The position numbers were made by a program, and so were the translations under genes. Source: Blastopirellula sp. (GTDB taxonomy: Bacteria > Planctomycetota > Planctomycetia > Pirellulales > Pirellulaceae). Taken from it: a stretch of DNA of 64,000 bases. The notes under the pieces are model-generated. The model had not been told where the DNA came from and did not search any database. It was given only the letters and a program-made list of their open reading frames with translations. Position 1 is the stretch's first letter; the number at the start of each line of letters is the position of its first letter. Location: contig NVWB01000012.1 in assembly GCA_002733575.1 (NCBI GenBank), forward strand, positions 1-64,000, in the 5' to 3' direction. Shown piece after piece: positions 36,700 to 50,601 of this stretch.

Positions 36700-36933
36700 T
36701 TTGTTGTCAGTGGTTTACTGTTTTGAAATTAACCGCCGCCGACGACGTCCCAAATCGTTCTAACCTGGACAGTACTCGCAGCGGCCCGCCCGCCCTCGAT
36801 TGCAGGAACCATCTCTTTGGTCACAGCCAACTCGCTCTTTTGATCTGCAGTTCCTGTGGGAAACGCAATAGGAAGCGAATGCGAACCGGGTCTTCCCATT
36901 GGCTTCCCTAACCGTTCCGTAGGCATATTGAAA

Positions 36934-37107
36934 ATGCGTGTTAATTTAATTAGCTTGGGATCCGAGGGCCCGCCAACGCCCCGCTTGTACGATTCATTGG
37001 TCGAAGTTTATCGTGTTCGGCATTACAGCTCACGTACTGAAGAAGCATACATCCATTGGATTCAGCGGTATACCGAATTCCATTCACGTTTCCTGTCGTA
37101 TTCGTTT
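36934..37107 (+). pseudogene. Remnant of an integron-type tyrosine recombinase (N-terminal part)
   Basis: The frame encodes PRLYDSLVEVYRVRHYSSRTEEAYIHWIQRYTEFH in two consecutive pieces: PRLYDSLVEVYRVRHYS and SRTEEAYIHWIQRYTEFH. This is the SAM-like core-binding domain of IntI/XerC-type integrases. The catalytic domain with the Arg-His-Arg-Tyr residues is absent: within about 15 residues the frame runs into the next gene. About 60 residues survive of the usual 320. It lies 280 bases after the duplicated tRNA-Pro end, in DNA richer in GC than its neighbours, so it is probably debris of the element that used the tRNA. Confidence 0.75.
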
Positions 37108-37125
37108 CTCGCAAAAGAGAATGAC

Positions 37126-38688
37126 ATGATAAGTCGCACCGTGACCCACTTTCGGTTCTGGTTACTCGCAGTGATTGTCACTGCCGGTTCTTCTGACAGT
37201 CTTTTAGCCGAAACTACAACTGTGTATGTCGTTCGTCACGCCGAGAAAGAGCAACAAACACTTAACGAGTTAATTGAGACATTGTTGGATTCCGAATTAG
37301 CCGATCAAACAAGGCCGCTAACTCCCCAGGGCATGCAACGTGCGCTCGATCTTCGCGATCTATTGCGATTCGAAGGCGTTAAGTTGGACGTCCTCTATTC
37401 CACGCACTTTCTGCGAACATGGCAAACCGCTGCCCCCTGTCTGGATTTGATCAAGTCTCAGGGTCCTAAGAAGGTATGGAGATACACAGCGATTGATGAT
37501 TTGGCGAATAAGATTAGCTCGATGCATTCGGGAAAGAGCATTCTGGTTGTGGGGCATTCGACGCAGGTTGAAAAGATAGTCGAGAGATTGACCGGCAAGA
37601 CTGTAGCACCGATAGGCAATCAGTTTAATAATCTGTTCGTTGTCATGACAGATGGAACGCGTGGGACGTATGAGCGGCGATCTTATGGAGAATTTACGGC
37701 AACTGGAACCATCAATCTTTCTGAGTCGGATAGCATCGCGATCGAAGAGGCTGAGGATATCAGCGGCGTGGCTGTAATGAAAGATGGCAGTTTGCTTATC
37801 GTGAGCGACGAGTCAAAAAACGCCGTGCAGGTAATCAAGAAAGACGGGGTGACCTACGTCGCGCAACGCCCACTTCGGATCGTCGAGAACGAGGACGATG
37901 AATTGGACCTGGAGGCCGTCACTCGTCAGCCAAATTCTCAAAGGTATTTTGCGGTTGGTTCTCATTCATCACGTCGCAGACAGATTTACAAGAAACATGC
38001 AAGCAAGACCGACGAAGAACGCAGGGAGCGATTTGAAGACAAATCCCCCGACCGAGAATCCCATCGCGAACAGATCTTTCGTTTTGAGATTGACGACGAA
38101 GGGCAATTGAAGAACGTAGAATCAAAGGATTTGCAAAATGCAATTCGTAGCCATAAACTGTTATCACATTTCTTTAACAGGAAGATTAATGATGAGAAGG
38201 ACGATGCCATTCCGAGCAAGGAGAACGGCATTGATATCGAAGGCATCGCATGGCACGACGACAAGCTATACATCGGTTTACGCGGGCCCGTACTAAGATG
38301 GAACTTTGTGCCAGTGATGATTGTAGATTTCGATAATCTGGATAACGCCAACGTCCGGTACGTCCAGCTTGACGGACGTGGAATTCGCGATTTAGTCCGC
38401 ATCAATAATGGGTTCTTGATTCTCGCTGGTGCTAACGGAGACGAGCCACTTTCGTTCCAGCTCTATTTCTGGAACGGCAAGAATTGTTTCCCTGGCGAAA
38501 TAAACAAACGCTCCCCGCACGTCGTGCTCTTAGGTACGGTTCCTACTCCGCCAGGAAGTAAAGCCGAGGGTATTGCCGTCCTAAACCTTGACGACCAAGA
38601 TGCCAAGAACTACGAGCTTCTTGTTATTTATGACGGTTTACAGGGTGGTCGTCCAACTCGCTACCTACTACCGAGGGCGAACCGATAG
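37126..38688 (+). CDS. Secreted histidine phosphatase fused to DUF3616
   Basis: The 520-residue protein from ATG 37126 starts with a signal peptide (FWLLAVIVTAGSSDSLLA). Residues about 28-185 form a histidine-phosphatase domain with the catalytic RHAEK and a second His in VVGHSTQ. The remaining 300 residues resemble DUF3616: ISGVAVMKDGSLLIVSDE, GIDIEGIAWHDDKLYIGLRG and GIRDLVRINNGFLILAG, probably a beta-propeller. The frame is open back to 36856, but that part is the integrase remnant. The gene may have come with the mobile element; its function is unknown. Confidence 0.8.
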   Translation: MISRTVTHFRFWLLAVIVTAGSSDSLLAETTTVYVVRHAEKEQQTLNELIETLLDSELADQTRPLTPQGMQRALDLRDLLRFEGVKLDVLYSTHFLRTWQTAAPCLDLIKSQGPKKVWRYTAIDDLANKISSMHSGKSILVVGHSTQVEKIVERLTGKTVAPIGNQFNNLFVVMTDGTRGTYERRSYGEFTATGTINLSESDSIAIEEAEDISGVAVMKDGSLLIVSDESKNAVQVIKKDGVTYVAQRPLRIVENEDDELDLEAVTRQPNSQRYFAVGSHSSRRRQIYKKHASKTDEERRERFEDKSPDRESHREQIFRFEIDDEGQLKNVESKDLQNAIRSHKLLSHFFNRKINDEKDDAIPSKENGIDIEGIAWHDDKLYIGLRGPVLRWNFVPVMIVDFDNLDNANVRYVQLDGRGIRDLVRINNGFLILAGANGDEPLSFQLYFWNGKNCFPGEINKRSPHVVLLGTVPTPPGSKAEGIAVLNLDDQDAKNYELLVIYDGLQGGRPTRYLLPRANR

Positions 38689-40062: not shown

Positions 40063-40274
40063 ATGGCTAAGTCAAAACGAAAACTGACTACAGCAGAGAA
40101 GCGAGTTCGTTGCGAGCGGAAAAAGAATTTGAGACCATATTTATCCATGGAAAACAAATACGCATACTTCGAGAGCCAACCATTGATGATATGACAGTGG
40201 ATGAGTTCATTTCTCAAAACGCTGATCCAAGCTGGCTGCATCAAAACGGGAACTGGGAAGATATTCAAGAGTAA
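40063..40274 (+). pseudogene. Small basic protein gene with a one-base frameshift
   Basis: From ATG 40063 the frame gives MAKSKRKLTTAEKRVRCERKK, then stops soon after. One base over, the frame continues as KEFETIFIHGKQIRIL, REPTIDDMTVDEFI and NADPSWLHQNGNWED up to 40274. Restoring one A in the A5 run at 40120-40124 makes one protein of about 70 residues. The pattern (Lys-rich start, then DGxxVDEFI..NADPxWLHQN..W) resembles small planctomycete proteins I have seen, but I know no function. Confidence 0.65.
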
Positions 40275-40329
40275 TAATGAACCTCCTTTAAGCACTTCAA
40301 CTAAATCCCATAAGAATTCTGCAATTTAG

Positions 40330-40358
40330 TTGACCCCTGTTTCTGGGTGGCATATAAT
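40330..40358 (+). promoter_or_regulatory. Strong sigma-70-type promoter
   Basis: TTGACC (40330-40335), a 17-base spacer and TATAAT (40353-40358) precede the gene at 40455 by about 97 bases. AAGGAG lies just before that start codon. Confidence 0.65.
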
Positions 40359-40454
40359 CGCCCTTTTGAGAAGGGTCAATTTTTCATTCAACCTAACACT
40401 TAGGTTTCTCTTTTCTTCTACATTGATTGTTCGATCATCAAGGAGCGGTAGGTT

Positions 40455-42944
40455 ATGAGTCAAGGAAATTCCAAGCAACCAGCATCTAAGGGTAAATACA
40501 AAAAAGCCATTAACATCGCTTGTGGCGTGGTTGCTATGAGTGCTGCGATTGTTTTTGTCATGGCTTCGGTTTTTGCATTGTTGAGTTCAGACCCCGATGT
40601 TGCTGAGAACAATCAACAACCGGATGCCAGCGGTGGATCGAGCTCAGCAACTGCCAAGAAAAAAGTGATCACCGGTTTAGTGACCATGGCCGACACAAAA
40701 AAACCGGTAGCTGGTGCCCAAGTTCGTCTGCTGACAAAACCTGAAGGTGAAGAGCATGCGACGACTCAGGTTGCAATCACCGATGCGAAAGGGGTCTTCA
40801 TCTTCGATGAAATTGGCGAAGGAAACACCCGAGTGATGGGCTACTACAAGGAATATGCTTCGAGAGCAAAACGCTACCAAGGCCAAGGAGTGTGGCCTAA
40901 CAAACAAAATTTAGTCGTTCCCCTGTTTAAAGTTCCTTCGATCAAAGTCAGGGTTATCTCTAGCAAAACAAAGCAGCCGATAAGTGGTGCCACTGTACAA
41001 AATGTTTGGACTGACGCAGAGAAAAACTATCAGACCGATGAGAACGGCGAGGTGGTGATCCATGGTCTGACACCAGAAATGTGGACCATCCAGGTAAACC
41101 AGCCAAGTTATGCTAGTCAAACCAAAGAGATCACATTGAAAGGTACTGGAACAACCGACTTACTTTTTGAAGTAGAACAAGGGGCGGTACTCATGGGCGA
41201 AGTGGTCGATGAACAGGGGGCCGGGATTAGCGGTGTGAGTATTGATCTCATTCGAGATCGTATCAAACATGTAGGTTCAATCAAAAGTGATGCGAATGGG
41301 AAATTTATATTTCCCTATGTGCCTATCTCGGACCTTAATGTTCATTGCTATAAAGATGGTTTCATTGAATCACAAGAAAAGGTTTCAATAACGACTAAAC
41401 CAGGGAGTCAACAGAAATTAAAATTAACACTAGAGAAACGACCCTATGGTGGTTTTGTTCGGGGCATTGTCACTGATGCCGACGGCCAAGTGATTGTTGG
41501 TGCTGAAATAACCAACAAAGGTCGCTCGTCCCGAGATATTCGGAAAGCGATCTCAGACAACTACGGGGCATTTCAGTTAGACGATGTTTTTGAGGGAGGA
41601 GCACTAGGGCACGAGCTGATTGTTAAAGCAAAAGGCTTTGCACCAAAAGTAGTTAAATTTAATCCAGGAAAACGGGAATCATCTGCCGATCTGAAAATCA
41701 TCTTAGAACAAGGCCATAGCATTCAAGGTCTTGTGGTTGATGAAGCAGGAGTCGGAATCCCGGAGGTGTTCATTTCTTATCCTGGAAGAGCCTTGCCTGG
41801 ATTAAGTGGAAGAACAAAAACCGATCAGCAAGGGAAATTCTCCATCGATTCCCTCCCGGCTAAATGCACTTTTCACATGAGCAAAGCAGGCTACTCTTCC
41901 ATTGAGTCAAATACACTAGAGCTCGATAGTAATCAGGTAGTGAAAGTTACCATGCTCTCGCCTGGGATGATTCGCGGACGAGTAGTTGATAGTATTACCG
42001 GGAAAACGGTGAGCCCTTTTGTGGTCAAAGTGACATTTTCTCCTGATAGGATGCCAGATGATCCAAGAGGCGGCTTAAGCTCATCGGTAGTGACTAGAGA
42101 TGGTCAGAAGTTTTCAAAAAAGGATGGGAAATTTCAGATAGGCAAATTCATGCGAAACATGGCCCTTCAAGTGACCGTACTGGCCGATGGTTATCATCAA
42201 AGGGTGGAACGCCGCGTTGTGGCCGAAGGGGCAGCTGAGGCAACGGTCATTGAATATCAATTGACACCCATCGACGAGTCGACCCTGCTCAGTTTTTCAG
42301 GTCAACTTGTCAATAAGAAAGCCGAGCCAATTGCAGGGGCCGAGTTGCGTTTGATCGTGGCGAACGGTCGATCCAACGATCAGATGAGGTCTCCTTTAAG
42401 ATGGGAGATGTTGCCTTATCGCTGGTATGAGATTCAAAGAGACCAGATTCAACGAATGGCTGAAGTGAAACAATTTCTGAGTGTGGTGTCGGATGAGAAT
42501 GGCAAGTTTCAGTTTGACCGCGTCTTCCCCAGTAAACATATCGATTTGGCCTACTGGGGCGATGGGGTATCGCAGGGGCAACTCTCTCAGTTAGAAAATA
42601 TGACTGAGCACGAGAGGAGCGAGATCAAGCTCATTATTGTTACGCCAGGCAGATTAGTAGGGAAGATCGATAGAGAAATCTATCCAACAGTCAAGATGAT
42701 CACGCTGTACGGGTCGGGTTACCAAACGAGTTTTAATAATTCGATCGCTTCTTCTGAGAACTCGTTCGATCTTCCCAACATTCCCCCTGGAGAATATCAA
42801 CTACGACTGGATGCTTACGAAAGAGATTCTGAAAACTCAATGATATTCCGAACTCGCAGCGTCAAAGAGCTCACGGTTGAAATCAAATCTGGTGAGACCT
42901 TAGAGCTTGATCTAGGGTTTGAAAGTAACAAACCGGCGTCCTAG
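40455..42944 (+). CDS. Membrane-anchored protein with carboxypeptidase-regulatory-like repeats
   Basis: The 829-residue protein has one N-terminal membrane helix (about residues 20-43) and then a long extracytoplasmic region. It contains repeated beta-sandwich units of the carboxypeptidase-regulatory type: KPVAGAQVRL, KQPISGATVQN, GAGISGVSIDL, QVIVGAEITNKGR, GVGIPEVFISYPG and EPIAGAELRL, each followed by a DxxGxF segment. The repeat region aligns throughout with the C-terminal 770 residues of the BlaR1-type protein at 47008 (for example PSIKVRVIS/PSIKVKVIS and DENGEVVIHGLTPEMW/DADGEVTLFGLTPEQW). It lacks the protease part, so it may be a structural or decoy relative of that sensor. Confidence 0.8.
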   Translation: MSQGNSKQPASKGKYKKAINIACGVVAMSAAIVFVMASVFALLSSDPDVAENNQQPDASGGSSSATAKKKVITGLVTMADTKKPVAGAQVRLLTKPEGEEHATTQVAITDAKGVFIFDEIGEGNTRVMGYYKEYASRAKRYQGQGVWPNKQNLVVPLFKVPSIKVRVISSKTKQPISGATVQNVWTDAEKNYQTDENGEVVIHGLTPEMWTIQVNQPSYASQTKEITLKGTGTTDLLFEVEQGAVLMGEVVDEQGAGISGVSIDLIRDRIKHVGSIKSDANGKFIFPYVPISDLNVHCYKDGFIESQEKVSITTKPGSQQKLKLTLEKRPYGGFVRGIVTDADGQVIVGAEITNKGRSSRDIRKAISDNYGAFQLDDVFEGGALGHELIVKAKGFAPKVVKFNPGKRESSADLKIILEQGHSIQGLVVDEAGVGIPEVFISYPGRALPGLSGRTKTDQQGKFSIDSLPAKCTFHMSKAGYSSIESNTLELDSNQVVKVTMLSPGMIRGRVVDSITGKTVSPFVVKVTFSPDRMPDDPRGGLSSSVVTRDGQKFSKKDGKFQIGKFMRNMALQVTVLADGYHQRVERRVVAEGAAEATVIEYQLTPIDESTLLSFSGQLVNKKAEPIAGAELRLIVANGRSNDQMRSPLRWEMLPYRWYEIQRDQIQRMAEVKQFLSVVSDENGKFQFDRVFPSKHIDLAYWGDGVSQGQLSQLENMTEHERSEIKLIIVTPGRLVGKIDREIYPTVKMITLYGSGYQTSFNNSIASSENSFDLPNIPPGEYQLRLDAYERDSENSMIFRTRSVKELTVEIKSGETLELDLGFESNKPAS

Positions 42945-43022
42945 ATAACTTTGAATTCGTTCATTATTAAAGATGCTCCGAATCCTCAATGTGATTTTAA
43001 TCAGAAAACGAATTGTTAAATT

Positions 43023-44168
43023 ATGAGCGAAGAATCTACAGAACAATCATCATCGAAGAGTAACTATTCGAGAATGATCAATATCTCTGCATTTCTCCTT
43101 ACCATCTGCGTCCTCGGCTGCGGAGGCGAAGATCCAGTGACGGAAGCGCCGTTACTTTCACTGCAATTTAAAAAACCTTCTACTCCGAATAAAAAATTTG
43201 AGGGGAACGATTTATCGACCTATGATGCCAAGGTTCTTGCCTCAGAAGCATATCAGTCTGTTCTAAAAAAAGAATATGACAAGGCAGTCCAGTTTCAGTA
43301 TTGGTCTGTTGCAAATACCGATGGTGAAGAGGGACTCTATAACTTGGCCTGTTATTACTCCTTGAAAACCGATGTTGAAGCTAGTTTCTATTGGATGAAA
43401 ATTGCGGCACAAAAAGAAGGGGTCGATGCTGATTGGGCTGTTGATGATCCTGATCTAAGAAGTATACGACGGGACTCTCGCTGGCCGTATGTTCGTCAGT
43501 ATCTCCGTAAGTACAACCAATATTGGTCTATTAGCGATATTCAAGAAACGACGCTGATTGTGCCTGCCGGTTACGACGGTATTTCTGAAATTCCAGTCAT
43601 GATAGGACTACACGGCATGGGCAGCCGGGCCAAAAGCTTTGTCGATGAAGACTATCAGGAATATGCGGATGAATTGAATATTGCATTTGTTGGCGTCAGT
43701 GGAACCGTACCGCGTGGCCCTACCAGTTTTGTGTGGAGTGAAGATCACGAAAAAGATTTACAACGGGTGAATCGAGCACTACGAGAAGTGAGTGATCGAT
43801 TGAAACCGGCGAAAGGCAAGTTGATTCTGTTTGGCTTCTCGCAAGGTGCCATGATGTCGGCTGAAATCGCAGCACGTCATCCTGACGATTATGCCGGTGC
43901 CATTATTATGTCTCCCGGCGGTGGATTCAGTCCTGCAACTGGCAGGCTCTCGGCAGAAGAAGCCCACAAACGGCAAGGGTACATTGTGGTGTGTGGGGCG
44001 GAAGAGCATCCCGGTAATGTCTCAAATACCAGAAAATATGCCAGTCACATGAAACGCTTAAACGCACGGGTCAAAGAACGCTTGTATCAAGACGTGTCCG
44101 ACCACGCATTTCCGCCAGACTATTACGAGCAACTGCCAAGCTGGATTGAATTTATTTTAGATGAATAG
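43023..44168 (+). CDS. Lipoprotein alpha/beta hydrolase with TPR-like N-terminus
   Basis: In this 381-residue protein an N-terminal helix ends in the lipobox VLGC (Cys about residue 36). Residues about 70-140 look like TPR helices (EGLYNLACYYSLKTDVEASFYWMKIA). The hydrolase domain contains IPVMIGLHGMGS, the nucleophile motif GFSQGA and a terminal DHAF with the catalytic His, like phospholipase/carboxylesterase or polyhydroxybutyrate depolymerase relatives. Substrate unknown. It follows the repeat protein by 78 bases on the same strand and could be in the same operon. Confidence 0.75.
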   Translation: MSEESTEQSSSKSNYSRMINISAFLLTICVLGCGGEDPVTEAPLLSLQFKKPSTPNKKFEGNDLSTYDAKVLASEAYQSVLKKEYDKAVQFQYWSVANTDGEEGLYNLACYYSLKTDVEASFYWMKIAAQKEGVDADWAVDDPDLRSIRRDSRWPYVRQYLRKYNQYWSISDIQETTLIVPAGYDGISEIPVMIGLHGMGSRAKSFVDEDYQEYADELNIAFVGVSGTVPRGPTSFVWSEDHEKDLQRVNRALREVSDRLKPAKGKLILFGFSQGAMMSAEIAARHPDDYAGAIIMSPGGGFSPATGRLSAEEAHKRQGYIVVCGAEEHPGNVSNTRKYASHMKRLNARVKERLYQDVSDHAFPPDYYEQLPSWIEFILDE

Positions 44169-44207
44169 GCATGAGCATTCCGACCATCGCAATTAAACCC
44201 GACTGAA

Positions 44208-44927
44208 ATGTTGAAGCGTTATCAAGAAGTGAATTTAATGAAATTTATTTCAGCCATATTTTCTTGGATTCTTGAGGAACTGCAATGGCGATTTCGTCAA
44301 TTGCTATGGCGATCATTCGGATCGGAGTTTGAAAAAACGAAAGCGGAATGGCAAGCAGAAAGATTGGAACTGCGATCAGCTATAAAATACGCTAAGGAAA
44401 GTGGAGCAATTGTGGAGCTTGTCGTGATTCCTCGCAAGCTAAAGCTAACTGCTTTCTATCCGAATAAATGTCACAAAAAAGATTTCAATGGAGTACCAAC
44501 GAATGTTTCCTATTCCTCCTGGATTGGTTTTGCTTATTTTCCATTTTTGAAAAAGCATTTGCTGATCAGTGTCTCGGTATGTGACACCAAGCCGACTGAG
44601 TTTCAAATGCAATTTTTGAAAAGCCTGGTGCTTGAGAAACGTGATCTCCGCAAGCACATTAATGGCAAGATCTACGAATACTATCAAAGTGAAGTGTACG
44701 GCAATCGAACCATCATTGATTGGGATTTTCAAGACATCACTGAAAAATGCGTTCCTAAAATCACAGAACCCTCTCAACTCTGGAAGCTTATCTCGGACCC
44801 TGGAATTGATAGCGTTGATGAGGAGGCCAATCAGTTTACTCTAGGTTTTAGATGCTCCTGGGAAGATGATAAACGATTGAAAGTTAAATTGAAGGATTGG
44901 GAAGTTATCAACATCTGGTCATTCTGA
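44208..44927 (+). CDS. Hypothetical protein with C-terminal DUF6985-like end
   Basis: The 239-residue protein has a hydrophobic, amphipathic N-terminus (FISAIFSWILEELQWRFRQL) and a charged helical stretch at about 42-65. The last 40 residues (NQFTLGFRCSWEDDKRLKVKLKDWEVINIW) resemble the end of DUF6985 proteins, seen as possible immunity proteins; this link is weak. ATG 44238, ten codons later, is an equal start candidate. It lies 40 bases after the hydrolase gene on the same strand. Confidence 0.55.
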   Translation: MLKRYQEVNLMKFISAIFSWILEELQWRFRQLLWRSFGSEFEKTKAEWQAERLELRSAIKYAKESGAIVELVVIPRKLKLTAFYPNKCHKKDFNGVPTNVSYSSWIGFAYFPFLKKHLLISVSVCDTKPTEFQMQFLKSLVLEKRDLRKHINGKIYEYYQSEVYGNRTIIDWDFQDITEKCVPKITEPSQLWKLISDPGIDSVDEEANQFTLGFRCSWEDDKRLKVKLKDWEVINIWSF

Positions 44928-45068
44928 TTTATTTACCATGGTTTTTCTGACAAATTCCTGGCACTCACTGTAATCACTTCCTACAATCAAACCAGGACCA
45001 GAACAGAGAAGCGGCGTTTCGACTTAATCTGAATTTCATGTTAATTTTCAGTGGTGAAGGAGAACTCC

Positions 45069-46301
45069 ATGTCGCTCAAATATCTATTCGGAATCACAGC
45101 ATTTTGCGCAGTCATCGCCTGGTGTGCATCGCAGTATGGGTACAGCAGCATTCCATTTTGGATTACTTTAGCCTTGTCACTCGCTATCTCCGGGGTGTTT
45201 GTCATTCTGGCACGCAATGAGAAGACAAAACGATACAGCTACTTAGCTCCGCTGCCACTTATCTTTTTCTGTATCATTCCAATTGCTTCGTTCTCACAGA
45301 TCCTCAACCTCGTCTTGCTCGTAACGTTCAGTGGTTACCTTGCAGCAAGACCTGTGTTCGCCACGAAAGATTTATGCGCGTTTATGATGGTCTTTTGTGG
45401 GGTCTCTCAAGTGCTTGGCACACTGCCTGGAAGAGCGGAAGTAAAAGATTTGATGGCAATGCGTGCAGCCTATCCGATTGTCTCACTCGAAGACCGTTTA
45501 GCGTATGAAAATCAGGTCACTGCAATTCAATCAGATGAGCCGCTTAGTCTGAGTGCCGAGGTATTGTTGCAGTTGACTGATGTGGAAAGTAACTCGGATG
45601 GACATAGCAGGCGAACTTATGATCTGAAAAGAATACATAGCGAACAATACGAGCAGTTTGTTCGATCTGCGGGCTTTGGAGTCTCTCGCATGCGACGTCC
45701 CTATATGGGGTCTCTCACGCTTCCACCGATTCAAAATATCACGTTTAATCACATCACCGATCCTGAAGCAGAAAGCGTTTATCCTTACTGGGATGCCATG
45801 TTTCAGTTGAGCGCTTCTTCGAACATCGATGATTTGCATCAAATTAGTCAGATCGATTTTTTAGATCCTGACGGGTACGGTGCTTTCTTTGAAAAGGAAA
45901 ATAAAGTTGCAGGGTTCACAGAGCATAGTTTTCACTATTCACCACGGGAAGGAATGGACGAACCCGGTCACTGGAAGATCGACCGACTAGAGTTAGTCAG
46001 CCTACTCAAATTTTCTGAACCGCAGGTCTATGTGCTCGATCACTTGCCGCGAATGGATCAACTCAAAGCTGACAAGGTGCCGACGCGGGCTCTGAACGAG
46101 TTTGAACTCGGTGCGTTAGATCAGCTTTGGACCGAACAAGACCTTGTGATTTCCAACAACAAAAACCACTACCAAATGCTCGGCTCATTAAGGGCCGCAA
46201 AAAAATGCCTAGAGTGTCATCAAGTAGAACGCGGGACTCTACTCGGAGCCTTCACCTACCATATTCAACACTTGCCGCCGGAAGACATAGACAAAAATTA
46301 A
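45069..46301 (+). CDS. Membrane protein with a CxxCH haem-binding motif, hypothetical
   Basis: This 410-residue protein has four or five hydrophobic segments in the first 120 residues, then a soluble region. KKCLECHQVERGTLLGAF near residue 380 carries a CxxCH motif like c-type cytochromes and may bind haem. ATG 45069 is preceded by GAAGGAGAACTCC, better than the GTG at 45051. The last codons (DIDKN) and stop lie in the flank of repeat copy B. It might sense redox state or pass electrons at the membrane; that is inference. Confidence 0.65.
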   Translation: MSLKYLFGITAFCAVIAWCASQYGYSSIPFWITLALSLAISGVFVILARNEKTKRYSYLAPLPLIFFCIIPIASFSQILNLVLLVTFSGYLAARPVFATKDLCAFMMVFCGVSQVLGTLPGRAEVKDLMAMRAAYPIVSLEDRLAYENQVTAIQSDEPLSLSAEVLLQLTDVESNSDGHSRRTYDLKRIHSEQYEQFVRSAGFGVSRMRRPYMGSLTLPPIQNITFNHITDPEAESVYPYWDAMFQLSASSNIDDLHQISQIDFLDPDGYGAFFEKENKVAGFTEHSFHYSPREGMDEPGHWKIDRLELVSLLKFSEPQVYVLDHLPRMDQLKADKVPTRALNEFELGALDQLWTEQDLVISNNKNHYQMLGSLRAAKKCLECHQVERGTLLGAFTYHIQHLPPEDIDKN

Positions 46302-46462
46302 CACTACCAACAGCCATTTTTGGGTGCCACTGGCTTCGCCAGTGAGAATCTCGTATCTACTCGTCCATTCAATTTCATGGAACACAACGGACCAGCTTGT
46401 GCTAAAATCTACATGACCTGAGTTCAAATGTTGCACACACTGGCGGAGCCAGTGGCACCCGG
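46284..46462. repeat. Dispersed inverted-repeat element, copy B
   Basis: The ends TGGGTGCCACTGGCTTCGCC (from 46321) and ACTGGCGGAGCCAGTGGCAC (to 46460) mirror each other. The inner part GAATCTCGTATCTACTCGTC matches copy C closely. The left flank from about 46284 (ACAAAAATTAACACTACCAA) is shared with copies C and D and includes the stop codon of the preceding gene. It fills part of a 284-base gap; the rest holds the blaI promoter. Confidence 0.85.
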
Positions 46463-46521
46463 CGAATTCACCTGATCTTCATTTCGCTTCTACTTCTTAT
46501 GGTAAATATCTAAAAACTCTA

Positions 46522-46555
46522 TTGACTACTGCCTTTTCATCCGCTACATTGTGTA
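46522..46555 (+). promoter_or_regulatory. blaI promoter with BlaI-type operator
   Basis: TTGACT (46522-46527), a 17-base spacer and TACATT (46545-46550) form a promoter. The -10 box is part of TACATTGTGTA, a TACA/TGTA dyad like the operators of BlaI, MecI and CopY repressors. TGTAAC words follow at 46552 and 46569. Self-repression of the blaI-blaR1 unit is likely. Confidence 0.6.
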
Positions 46556-46585
46556 ACATTATACGCTGTAACGGAAGGAATTCAC

Positions 46586-47005
46586 ATGTCAAAACAATCG
46601 AAACAGCCGCTAAGTGACTTGGAAAACAAGGTCATGGATGCTGCTTGGGCCGCAGGCTCAGTCACGGCAGACCAAGTTCGGATGGCCCTGGAGCCAGAGC
46701 AGAGCCTTAAAGATTCGACGATACGCACCGTGCTGCGGCGTCTGGAAGAGAAGGGCTACGTCACGCATGTTGTCGAAGGTCGGACTTATATCTACACGCC
46801 AACAGGCGGGGCCCAGGCAGTCGCCGCAGATGCTGTGCGTGGCATTATCGACCGGTTCTGCAAAGGTTCTGTCGAAGACCTGCTGCTTGGTCTGATCGAC
46901 CGAGAAGTGGTATCGCACGAAGAACTATCACGACTTGCCCAGCGGATTGCCAAGAGTAAAGAGAATACGCCTGAAACTAAACCGACTCGAAAGAAAAGGA
47001 ATTAA
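46586..47005 (+). CDS. blaI: BlaI/MecI/CopY-family repressor
   Basis: A 139-residue winged-helix protein with LSDLENKVMDAAW, the recognition region KDSTIRTVLRRLEEKGYVTH and a helical dimerisation part DAVRGIIDRFCKGSVEDLLLGLI, a pattern specific to BlaI. GGAAGGA precedes the ATG. Cognate BlaR1 proteases cut such repressors within this tail. It starts an operon: the BlaR1-type gene begins two bases after its stop. The name is by family; no beta-lactamase gene is nearby, so the signal is likely different. Confidence 0.93.
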   Translation: MSKQSKQPLSDLENKVMDAAWAAGSVTADQVRMALEPEQSLKDSTIRTVLRRLEEKGYVTHVVEGRTYIYTPTGGAQAVAADAVRGIIDRFCKGSVEDLLLGLIDREVVSHEELSRLAQRIAKSKENTPETKPTRKKRN

Positions 47006-47007
47006 CC

Positions 47008-50000
47008 ATGGCCATAAATCTTATTGAACGATTCCCTATGTTCATTGCTGACCTTTCGATCAAAGTGCTAATTCTGGCTTTCATCACCTGGGGAGTCTTG
47101 CAAGTTTTCCGGGTGAAGAGCGAAAGCTGGAAGCATCGGGTATGGTCGTTGATGCTCGCTGGCACGCTGCTGCTTCCAACAGCAGGGCTGCTGGTTCCGT
47201 CCATAATTAACCCAACTTCGTTCGTTACCTCATTACCAATCTCTGGGGTTGAAAAAACTGATGTCCCAGCTGTTCCAGATGTTTCGGCATCTGTTGTATT
47301 AAATAACTTCACGCCCGAAGACATTCCCGCTGATTCAGCAGTTCCTTTAAGCATTCCACCTATGGAAATTGCACCAACGGAAATTGCACCTAAGGTTATT
47401 ACACTGCCACCAACTACACTCGAAAGCTTGATCGCTGACTTTGAACCTGAGCCCGTTTCAAGCGACAACGCATTCTCCCCGCCAGTGGTCGAGATGGCTC
47501 CGATAAAGCCAATTGAAAAAATCGAGGCAACTCAGGCTGAATTCCAAGCTTGGCCTTTCTTTCTAGCAATCGTGCCCTGGGTCTATTTATCTGTCGCGTT
47601 ATTACTCTTGGGCCGTCTCGTCATGGGACTGGTTTTGACACAACGGATCGTGCAACGTGCAGCAATCGTTAAGTCATCTCGCATCGAGGGTTTGCTCTCT
47701 GTTGCAGTGCCCGTTTACGAGTCGAACGAAGTCCAAGTACCGGTCGTGGTAGGGCTGGTGCGTCCTGTGATTTTGCTTCCATCAGACTGGGATGCGTGGA
47801 GTCAATCTACGCTACAAATGGTCTTCACGCACGAAGGCGAACATCTTCTCCGGAAAGACTTGTGGGTCGCCTTGGGGGCCAATATCTGTCAGGCCGTTTA
47901 TTGGTTTCATCCCCTTATTTGGCTGGTTCGACGGCACTTGAGTGAACTGGCCGAGCGTGCCTGTGACGACGAAGTGCTACGTGTGACCGCAGACCATGCA
48001 AGCTACGCCGAATGTCTATTGCACATGGCAAGCCTGCTTTCGACCAAAGGGAAAAGTTTTCAACCACTGGCACTCGGGATGGCCCGGCAATCAAAAGTCG
48101 AAGGGCGAATCAACGCGATCCTTGATTCGGATCGCCCCCTAGCGAATCGAATCGGAACCGGCATAGGGTTGTTACTCTTGCTATCCGTTGCCTCGCTGGT
48201 TGCATTGGTGGCCGGTATTGAGTTCACCAAACAAGCGGTGGCAGAAGAACCCAAGGTTGCAGATGTCACTACTGAACAAGCCACTGCCGAACCAGTCACT
48301 CCCGAAAAAGGAGATGCCCTCAAGCAAATCAGCGGACGAGTGGTAATGGGCGACAGTGGCAAACCGGTCGCTGGGGCAGAAGTCCGTCTTTCTTCATATT
48401 ATAAAACGGCTCCCCGCTCCGTCAATGAAATTGCAATCACCAACAAAGATGGAGTCTTTACGTTCGACCAACTAGCAGAAGGAAAACATCGCTTAGTGGC
48501 CTTCTATCAAGATACCGCATCAAGATCAAAACGAAATGAACATCTGACAGTCAACCTGGGCGAAAAGAATGCCCTGCTCACGCTTCAAAAAGCTCCTTCG
48601 ATCAAGGTGAAAGTGATCTCTGATAGTACACGAGAATTACTTGAGGACGTAACAGTTCAGGTACTTTCGGCAGATGGCAAGGATGAGTATCAAACCGATG
48701 CAGATGGGGAAGTGACCCTGTTTGGATTAACGCCTGAACAGTGGAGTATCAAAGTGATCTCAAACGACTATGTGGTAGAACGCCATACACTGCTTCTCAG
48801 AGGCGATAAAACAGGTGTGGTCTTGGCCGAACTGGATCAAGGCGTTGAACTGCACGGAAAAGTAACGGACGAAAACGGCGTTGGATTGAGCAATGGTTAC
48901 ATCGGTGTGCTTGAGGAAAGTAGTATTCTCGGAAGTCAAGGAGATTCTTTTCAAACGGATGACTCTGGCAATTTTCGGTTTAGGCTTCTTCGAGCGAATG
49001 CAATCTCTCTCTCTATTATTGTACCAGGATATAAACAAGTGCGTCATGATGTTCCTATAAGAGTGAGGGTTGGAGGCAAGCAAGAAGTTAATGTTGAATT
49101 AAAAAAGCGTCCAGTTGGCGGCTCTGTTACAGGGATTGTGACCAACACAAAAGGCAACCCCATCGCTGGTGCCCAAATTACCAATCGTGGACGCTACTCG
49201 GGGTGGCGGAATTCGATAACAGACGTAGAGGGTCGTTTTCAATTAGAGGATGTTCTAGAAGGTGAATCGAATGAATATACACTCGGCGTAAGAGCCCCTG
49301 GATATGTTTCTCAAGGGCTTGCTTTTACCCCTGGTGATAAAGCCAATCCTGCTGAGGTCCAAGTCGCTTTGAAAATAGGGCATCGAGCAAAAGGGCGTGT
49401 CGTGGATGAATATGGAGAAGGGATTTCCGGAGTTACGATCTATTCCAACAATGGCACGAGAGATCCTGGTCAAAATATAACTGTTTTTCGTAAAACCGAT
49501 CAGGAAGGTCGATTCTCTTTGGTTGATCTTCCTGAAAATGCCTCACTTTCGTTCCACAAATTTGGATTGATTCAGCTTCCTGGAAATCAAGTGCCGTTGG
49601 ACAGTGAAGAGGAAACTATTGTAATAATGAAGACGAGTAGCAGTCTTCGTGGGCGTGTTGTCGATGCCATTACAGGCAAGCCGGTGACGTCTTTTTCTGT
49701 CCAAATTCTTTATCTCCCGAGAGGATATCTTTTACCACCGTATGGCGAAAAGTTCTCAAACATAAACGGAGAATTTCAGGTCTATAAGATATCTAATTAT
49801 TCGTGGCTACAGTTACTAGTTTCTGCTGATGGATACCATCAAGGGGTCTACAGGAATCGACCGGTAACACAATTAGTGATAGATAATAAGGAAATTGAGT
49901 TTCGACTTAAACCGATAGTTAAAGAGTCGCTCTTCAAAGTCTCAGGTCGTGTTGTGAATGATCAATCAGAACCCATCGCAAATGCAAAAGTGCGGCTGCT

Positions 50001-50601
50001 CCTCAATGATCAGCACCCTGAGAATCGGGATACGTTCCCTTTTATATGGGCGAAAACAATACCTTACGATGTTGAGAGACACCTCGGTGATCAAAATTTC
50101 CGAAGCACGGTCTCAGACAAAAACGGTGACTTTGAATTCTTAAACGTAGTCCCTTCAAATTATATCGAACTGAATTACTCCTGGGGTCTCGGCAGCTATG
50201 GTGATCGTATCACGGAAGAAAATTACGGTGAACGGATCACCTATCTAGAAGAAATGACAAAGCAAGAACGAACGAACATCCAACTACAATTTAATCCACC
50301 AGGTAAGATCGCTGCTCGTGTTCACATGCTTGCCTACCCAACTGCTCGTGAAGTTTCGATTGTTGGGGTTTCCAATGGACATCGTTTTCGTCGATCCATT
50401 TCCAAGGCCGCCCCTGCCTTTGGAATGAGGAATGTGCCTCCAGGTCGTTATGAACTGACCCTGTATGCACCCTCGGAAGATAAGAGGGGTTTTATCGAAG
50501 GGTATTTGACCAAAGAAATTAAAAGCATGTTCATCGAAGTAAAATCGGGGCAGACGCTCAACCTGGGTCTAGGGTCGACGGGTGACACTGACGAAAACTA
50601 A
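47008..50601 (+). CDS. BlaR1-type M56 protease with giant repeat ectodomain
   Basis: This 1,197-residue membrane protein starts with two or three helices (residues 15-66, 183-212). The M56 zinc site is HEGEH (275-279) and the third ligand region is ERACDDEVLR (316-325). A helix at about 381-405 crosses the membrane again. The following 770 residues, about ten carboxypeptidase-regulatory-like beta sandwiches, are outside the cytoplasm where BlaR1 has its penicillin sensor. It probably binds an extracellular ligand and then cleaves the BlaI partner. The paralogue at 40455 shares the same ectodomain. Translation is coupled to blaI. The last residues (GDTDEN) and stop lie in the flank of repeat copy C. 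Confidence 0.9.
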   Translation: MAINLIERFPMFIADLSIKVLILAFITWGVLQVFRVKSESWKHRVWSLMLAGTLLLPTAGLLVPSIINPTSFVTSLPISGVEKTDVPAVPDVSASVVLNNFTPEDIPADSAVPLSIPPMEIAPTEIAPKVITLPPTTLESLIADFEPEPVSSDNAFSPPVVEMAPIKPIEKIEATQAEFQAWPFFLAIVPWVYLSVALLLLGRLVMGLVLTQRIVQRAAIVKSSRIEGLLSVAVPVYESNEVQVPVVVGLVRPVILLPSDWDAWSQSTLQMVFTHEGEHLLRKDLWVALGANICQAVYWFHPLIWLVRRHLSELAERACDDEVLRVTADHASYAECLLHMASLLSTKGKSFQPLALGMARQSKVEGRINAILDSDRPLANRIGTGIGLLLLLSVASLVALVAGIEFTKQAVAEEPKVADVTTEQATAEPVTPEKGDALKQISGRVVMGDSGKPVAGAEVRLSSYYKTAPRSVNEIAITNKDGVFTFDQLAEGKHRLVAFYQDTASRSKRNEHLTVNLGEKNALLTLQKAPSIKVKVISDSTRELLEDVTVQVLSADGKDEYQTDADGEVTLFGLTPEQWSIKVISNDYVVERHTLLLRGDKTGVVLAELDQGVELHGKVTDENGVGLSNGYIGVLEESSILGSQGDSFQTDDSGNFRFRLLRANAISLSIIVPGYKQVRHDVPIRVRVGGKQEVNVELKKRPVGGSVTGIVTNTKGNPIAGAQITNRGRYSGWRNSITDVEGRFQLEDVLEGESNEYTLGVRAPGYVSQGLAFTPGDKANPAEVQVALKIGHRAKGRVVDEYGEGISGVTIYSNNGTRDPGQNITVFRKTDQEGRFSLVDLPENASLSFHKFGLIQLPGNQVPLDSEEETIVIMKTSSSLRGRVVDAITGKPVTSFSVQILYLPRGYLLPPYGEKFSNINGEFQVYKISNYSWLQLLVSADGYHQGVYRNRPVTQLVIDNKEIEFRLKPIVKESLFKVSGRVVNDQSEPIANAKVRLLLNDQHPENRDTFPFIWAKTIPYDVERHLGDQNFRSTVSDKNGDFEFLNVVPSNYIELNYSWGLGSYGDRITEENYGERITYLEEMTKQERTNIQLQFNPPGKIAARVHMLAYPTAREVSIVGVSNGHRFRRSISKAAPAFGMRNVPPGRYELTLYAPSEDKRGFIEGYLTKEIKSMFIEVKSGQTLNLGLGSTGDTDEN

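Follow-up and report, generated by a model that had tools for sequence, protein, structure and literature searches.

A BlaR1-type receptor-protease with a carboxypeptidase-regulatory-like outer chain and its protease-less paralogue in a Blastopirellula genome

BlaR1 is known as a beta-lactam sensor. In Staphylococcus aureus and Bacillus licheniformis it is encoded in a blaI-blaR1 operon and consists of four transmembrane (TM) helices, an HExxH...E protease placed between TM3 and TM4, and a C-terminal outer sensor, with a palindromic TACA/TGTA operator lying over the promoter. BlaI_1845 of Clostridium thermocellum uses tandem sites, and its regulon is its own operon only (PMC8457756). Planctomycete-type BlaR1 proteins with CarboxypepD_reg ectodomains were also present among the genomes compared here (G137, G139, G253, G244, G177, G498, and G066), and no publication on BlaR1 with carboxypeptidase-regulatory-type ectodomains was found among the open-access papers searched. 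The locus described below lies in a 64,000-nucleotide window (the whole stretch of DNA that was analyzed) on contig C14 of a Blastopirellula sp. draft genome of 9.25 Mb (438 contigs, 88% complete), which is the sole genome of its genus in our comparison set. It resembles the S. aureus and B. licheniformis systems in all of the above features, but a CarboxypepD_reg-like chain replaces the penicillin-binding domain, there is no beta-lactamase/PBP2a divergon, and the predicted regulon is limited to the operon itself. The products of the genes starting at 40455 and 47008 are denoted W40 and W47, and the features of the locus are listed in Table 1.

Table 1. Features of the W40–W47 locus, in positions of the window (aa, amino acids; PWM, position weight matrix).
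Feature	Position	Strand	Basis or remark
Sigma70-like promoter of 40455, TTGACC-17-TATAAT, no BlaI operator	40330..40358	+	Consensus scan, 11/12
5' segment of 40455 (~30 nt upstream through codon 22), a homologue of the 43023 5' segment	40424..40520	+	Local alignment
W40, single-pass protease-less ectodomain copy	40455..42944	+	ORF, BLASTP, Pfam, hydropathy; 829 aa
Matching 5' segment of the 43023 esterase gene	42992..43088	+	Local alignment
Putative lipoprotein esterase, gene next after 40455	43023..44168	+	TPR-end plus alpha/beta hydrolase
DUF6985 protein, between the W40 and W47 genes; no known link	44208..44927	+	Pfam
Membrane protein, CECHQ motif (CxxCH), weak Tll0287-like match; no known link	45051..46301	+	ORF, Pfam
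blaI promoter, TTGACT-17-TACATT; −10 inside first operator	46522..46550	+	Consensus scan
Predicted operator 1, GCTACATTGTGTAAC	46543..46557	.	PWM 19.0, best of the window; only exact GYTACANNNTGTARC match in 9.25 Mb
Predicted operator 2, ATTATACGCTGTAAC, abutting operator 1	46558..46572	.	Tandem pattern; no other mismatch-free occurrence in the genome
BlaI-family repressor, 139 aa	46586..47005	+	Penicillinase_R 1.6e-29
W47, BlaR1-type receptor-protease, 1197 aa	47008..50601	+	ORF, Pfam, hydropathy, motif
W47 M56 peptidase domain; HEGEH residues 275–279, E316	47416..48120	+	Pfam, motif
W47 ectodomain, residues 439–1189, homologous to W40 62–829	48322..50574	+	BLASTP, tree

W47 had been taken in a sequence-only reading for a sensor-protease linked to a BlaI repressor, and this reading is supported. 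A Peptidase_M56 domain was detected in W47 with 104.4 bits (E = 8.5e-30), well above the curated Pfam cut-off of 31, and its zinc site HExxH...E with the E-x3-D arrangement is intact, D320 following the third ligand. Hydropathy alone predicts the four TM helices at residues 16–34, 49–67, 184–202, and 386–404, the protease being placed before the fourth. The blaI gene ends 2 nt upstream of the W47 gene, and its winged-helix product matched Penicillinase_R with 103 bits (Pfam cut-off 22.6), as BlaI/MecI repressors do. The sensor of W47 is composed of CarboxypepD_reg/transthyretin-like repeats (CarboxypepD_reg 2e-57, Pfam). Neither a transpeptidase nor a beta-lactamase match was obtained for W47 in Pfam, so that it does not present the SxxK penicillin-binding sensor, and it scored 75.8 bits against the blaR1 equivalog (blaR1_generic), for which the cut-off is 400. 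These results support the view that W47 is not a beta-lactam sensor of known type. The absence of a penicillin-binding sensor domain makes a signal other than an acylating beta-lactam likely, which agrees with the novel signal that had been anticipated. Judged by its domains, W47 is a receptor of BlaR1 type in which the sensor has been exchanged, an architecture class already known among the relatives sampled. Candidate signal-peptidase AxA sites were recognized 6–8 residues beyond TM4 in W47 (AVA/EE) and in G137, G139, and G220; at the corresponding place after TM4, signal peptidase cuts the sensor off S. aureus BlaR1 (PMC9834060). The host genome contains two other BlaI/BlaR1 pairs, on contigs C75 and C48. 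The BlaR1 of the C75 pair (L074 9305–14343) ends in leucine-rich repeats, and two genes further along the opposite strand carries a PF00144 beta-lactamase-family gene.

Two abutting 15-bp palindromes (GYTACANNNTGTARC) lie over the −10 element of blaI and are the probable BlaI operator, which gives the predicted site (46543–46572) the position of a BlaI/MecI dyad over its own promoter. A PWM built without the sites of the window scored 19.0 at operator 1, while 40 random sequences of equal length reached at most 14.9. The genome contains a single exact match to the 15-mer pattern; since approximately 2 matches are estimated to arise by chance over 9 Mb, it is the position of the operator and not its rarity that is the evidence. 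The same abutting units precede blaI in three relatives, with two units each in G137 and G253 and three in G139, and a pair of them is found ahead of a derived gene in G111. In these four genomes and the host, the tandem pattern at or near consensus occurs once per genome, only at this locus. A second tandem on contig C87 (2 mismatches) was dismissed, as it lies inside a coding frame and amounts to no more than the reversed-pattern control yielded. Because the tandem is unique to this locus, the predicted BlaI regulon is the receptor's own operon, as judged by a motif search of an 88% complete draft that would miss single degenerate sites. This is similar to C. thermocellum BlaI_1845, for which two inverted-repeat pairs precede its own operon and no other target was reported (PMC8457756), though that operon also encodes two hypothetical proteins, whereas no conserved downstream gene was seen here. 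The earlier reading had further noted that no beta-lactamase is near, and a scan of the genes surrounding the locus indeed found none. It is conceivable that the system controls a beta-lactamase or another resistance gene elsewhere, as the family names and the PF00144 gene near another BlaI/BlaR1 pair on C75 would suggest for an ordinary BlaI/BlaR1. This is, however, the least probable of the explanations weighed here: W47 lacks a penicillin-binding domain and falls far short of the equivalog cut-off, the operator is unique to blaI, and the C75 pair, where no tandem motif was seen, comes with a BlaI of its own. The genome-wide site search thus gave no indication of ordinary beta-lactamase control.

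W40 and W47 had been proposed to share a giant ectodomain, and BLASTP aligned W40 43–821 with W47 411–1189 in one colinear alignment of 799 aa (36% identical, 56% similar, 5% gaps, E = 5e-148), covering the C-terminal ~750 residues of W47. W40 has CarboxypepD_reg repeats (6.8e-62) with no peptidase match in Pfam, and one TM helix is predicted by hydropathy at residues 25–43, in accordance with its earlier description as a single-pass, protease-less paralogue. The carboxypeptidase-regulatory repeat is common and little informative on function. A structure prediction attained moderate confidence for the repeat region 1–460 and poor confidence for the last 230 residues, and Foldseek retrieved pilin, adhesin, and macroglobulin beta-sandwich proteins with low TM-scores that speak for the fold class only. 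Besides W40 and W47, no further copy of this ectodomain family was found in the host genome. A scan of genome contigs with a two-row alignment gave no matches, and a second one gave 21–45% partial repeat matches only, which were mostly generic. In a tree with 12 relatives, W40 and W47 were sisters with a support of 100/99, while the distant BlaR1 ectodomain of G066, which has the same repeat type, gave only 24% identity over 432 aa. The likeness therefore exceeds a generic fold, and on this phylogenetic evidence the pair is a lineage-specific duplication and not merely a case of common fold. The branch lengths (1.29 for W47 vs. 0.61 for W40) and Tajima relative-rate tests, in which W47 was also faster but weakly so (p = 0.02–0.14), indicate that the protease-less W40 is not the faster-evolving copy. 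By the same measures, conservation of the W40 ectodomain against outgroups is no less than that of W47. Four outgroups have 163 invariant columns in common; 109 of them are retained in W40 and 107 in W47, of which 22 and 20, respectively, are retained in one copy only. Both copies hence look constrained, in partly different ways. W40 might otherwise be a neutral leftover of a recent partial duplication that is open by chance, since it occurs in one genome only and a single member of the genus was compared. We regard this as highly improbable, as 829 codons have stayed open after divergence to 36% identity and the shorter branch and the rate tests point the other way.

The W40 and W47 genes lie on the same strand (+) 3.6 kb apart, and both frames are intact. 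The 5' segment of 40455 aligned with that of 43023 with a score of 39 at the DNA level and 49 for the protein N-termini, neither of which was reached in 1000 shuffles, and the two proteins are unrelated beyond this common segment. The 43023 product matched Pfam Abhydrolase_2 and, above cut-off, NCBIfam TPR_END_plus, with a lipobox VLGC read in the sequence. An origin of W40 as a blaI::TM4 deletion fusion, like the G111 gene described below, was rejected, as 494 of 1000 shuffles did as well as its 5' end against blaI and 623 of 1000 did so against TM4. Because this end aligns with 43023 and not with blaI or TM4, W40 can, as far as alignments tell, be described as the ectodomain fused to a local 5' segment. 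In other genera, the orthologues of 43023 do not share this N-terminus. The sigma70-like promoter of 40455 is suggestive only, since matches were equally frequent in shuffled sequences. No BlaI operator was detected upstream of 40455 (40250–40470), where the best PWM score was −1.3 vs. 19.0 at blaI. A shared half-site-like CTACATTG was tried as an operator and discarded, its right half being absent. The 40455 promoter, for which a BlaI operator had been suggested as a check, thus does not belong to the predicted regulon.

The ectodomain family was found at E = 1e-25 or better in 9 of 241 same-family genomes, including the host, and G253, G244, G248, and G220 were added from 396 sampled genomes of the order. 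Two copies were seen only in the host, and the searches of relatives scored 2–5 candidates per genome, which could have missed a second copy. At this depth, no relative was found to combine a BlaR1 copy with a protease-less one. The seven planctomycete-type BlaR1 relatives named above share the layout of W47, with blaI directly upstream where checked, but differ in that no full-length protease-less paralogue was found in the same genome; among the genomes compared, such a paralogue beside the receptor was found in the host only. Genus g45 (G185, G173, and G165) encodes a protein of 820–870 aa with a colinear ectodomain that is 43–45% identical to the G177 BlaR1 ectodomain and, like W40, has no protease. 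Unlike W40, to which it is 25–27% identical, it carries a signal peptide in place of the TM anchor, and no BlaI/BlaR1 bearing this ectodomain was found near the secreted gene. In G111, a 315-aa gene (L028 6327–7274, − strand) sits behind an intact tandem BlaI operator and joins the first 17 residues of BlaI to the end of the M56 region with TM4 and then to the last part of the ectodomain. Its BlaI part was equaled in 0–4 of 2000 shuffles and its TM4 part in 0–1 of 2000, and the gene looks like the product of two in-frame deletions of a blaI-blaR1 operon. As the W40, g45, and G111 forms differ in branch or construction, the ectodomain has been split from the protease more than once, which suggests that this part serves a function of its own. 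Such derivatives could be decaying remnants, but their reading frames are open.

These comparisons bear on the earlier suggestion that W40 is a competitor or partner within the BlaI circuit. As a decoy, W40 would bind the ligand of W47 without signaling and thereby set the threshold of the switch. The same ectodomain at full length in a nearby intact frame would allow this, and a constitutive, operator-free promoter would suit a fixed threshold. We nevertheless consider it unlikely, since the two copies occur together in no relative among the 2–5 candidates scored per genome, no receptor of that ectodomain was found that the g45 form could tune, and W40 and W47 are only 36% identical and have lost different conserved residues. 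As a co-receptor, W40 would pair with W47 via the repeats and be required for signaling, for which one may adduce the same locus, the same repeat architecture, and the fact that S. aureus BlaR1 is a domain-swapped dimer (PMC9834060). This is decidedly improbable: the receptors of G137, G139, and G253, with no second copy found, argue against a general need, and the known dimer contacts involve membrane and protease regions that are absent from W40. Neither role within the BlaI circuit is supported for a gene with no operator and its own sigma70-like promoter.

We prefer to regard W47 as an autoregulated receptor of BlaR1 architecture, and W40 as a lineage-specific duplicate of its ectodomain that serves as a BlaI-independent effector or scaffold and is no component of the switch, a reading to which we give an even chance. 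Ligand binding to, or strain on, the outer chain of W47 would activate the cytoplasmic zinc protease, as expected from homology with BlaR1 (PMC9834060). According to the BlaR1 paradigm, the activated protease would then cleave BlaI at the tandem operator and release transcription of blaI-blaR1. Since no other BlaI target is predicted, the product rising on induction would be the receptor together with its ectodomain, which may be released at the signal-peptidase-like AVA/EE site, like the S. aureus sensor. W40 would have lost, or never acquired, the protease and the operator, and most likely presents a binding surface of the same kind at the cell envelope independently of BlaI. W40, the g45 secreted protein, and the G111 fusion would all be ectodomain products without the switch. 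More tentatively, and with some doubt, the ectodomain itself may be the effector and the BlaI/BlaR1 module its dedicated switch, with lineages freeing the ectodomain repeatedly since it is useful. If this is true, the locus is a one-operon circuit whose sole output is its own sensor, and that sensor doubles as its own effector. The chassis known from beta-lactam sensing here carries a large repeat ectodomain, with itself as the only predicted target. A defined operator and a small regulon make both signal and output directly testable, for which the protease-less derivatives provide natural single-function versions.

Three further observations were made in the course of this analysis. G165 encodes another M56 receptor of 1335 aa (L026 15991–18001, L086 991–4998) at ~5 kb from its secreted ectodomain gene, and the ectodomain of this receptor is unmatched by the g45 secreted protein. 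At 36856–38688 of the window, one frame combines a phage-integrase SAM-like fragment with a histidine-phosphatase/DUF3616 protein, whose actual start may lie further downstream. Copies of a palindromic repeat (ACTGGC..GCCAGT, bordered by GGTGCC/GGCACC) flank the blaI-blaR1 operon at 46302–46480 and ~50640.
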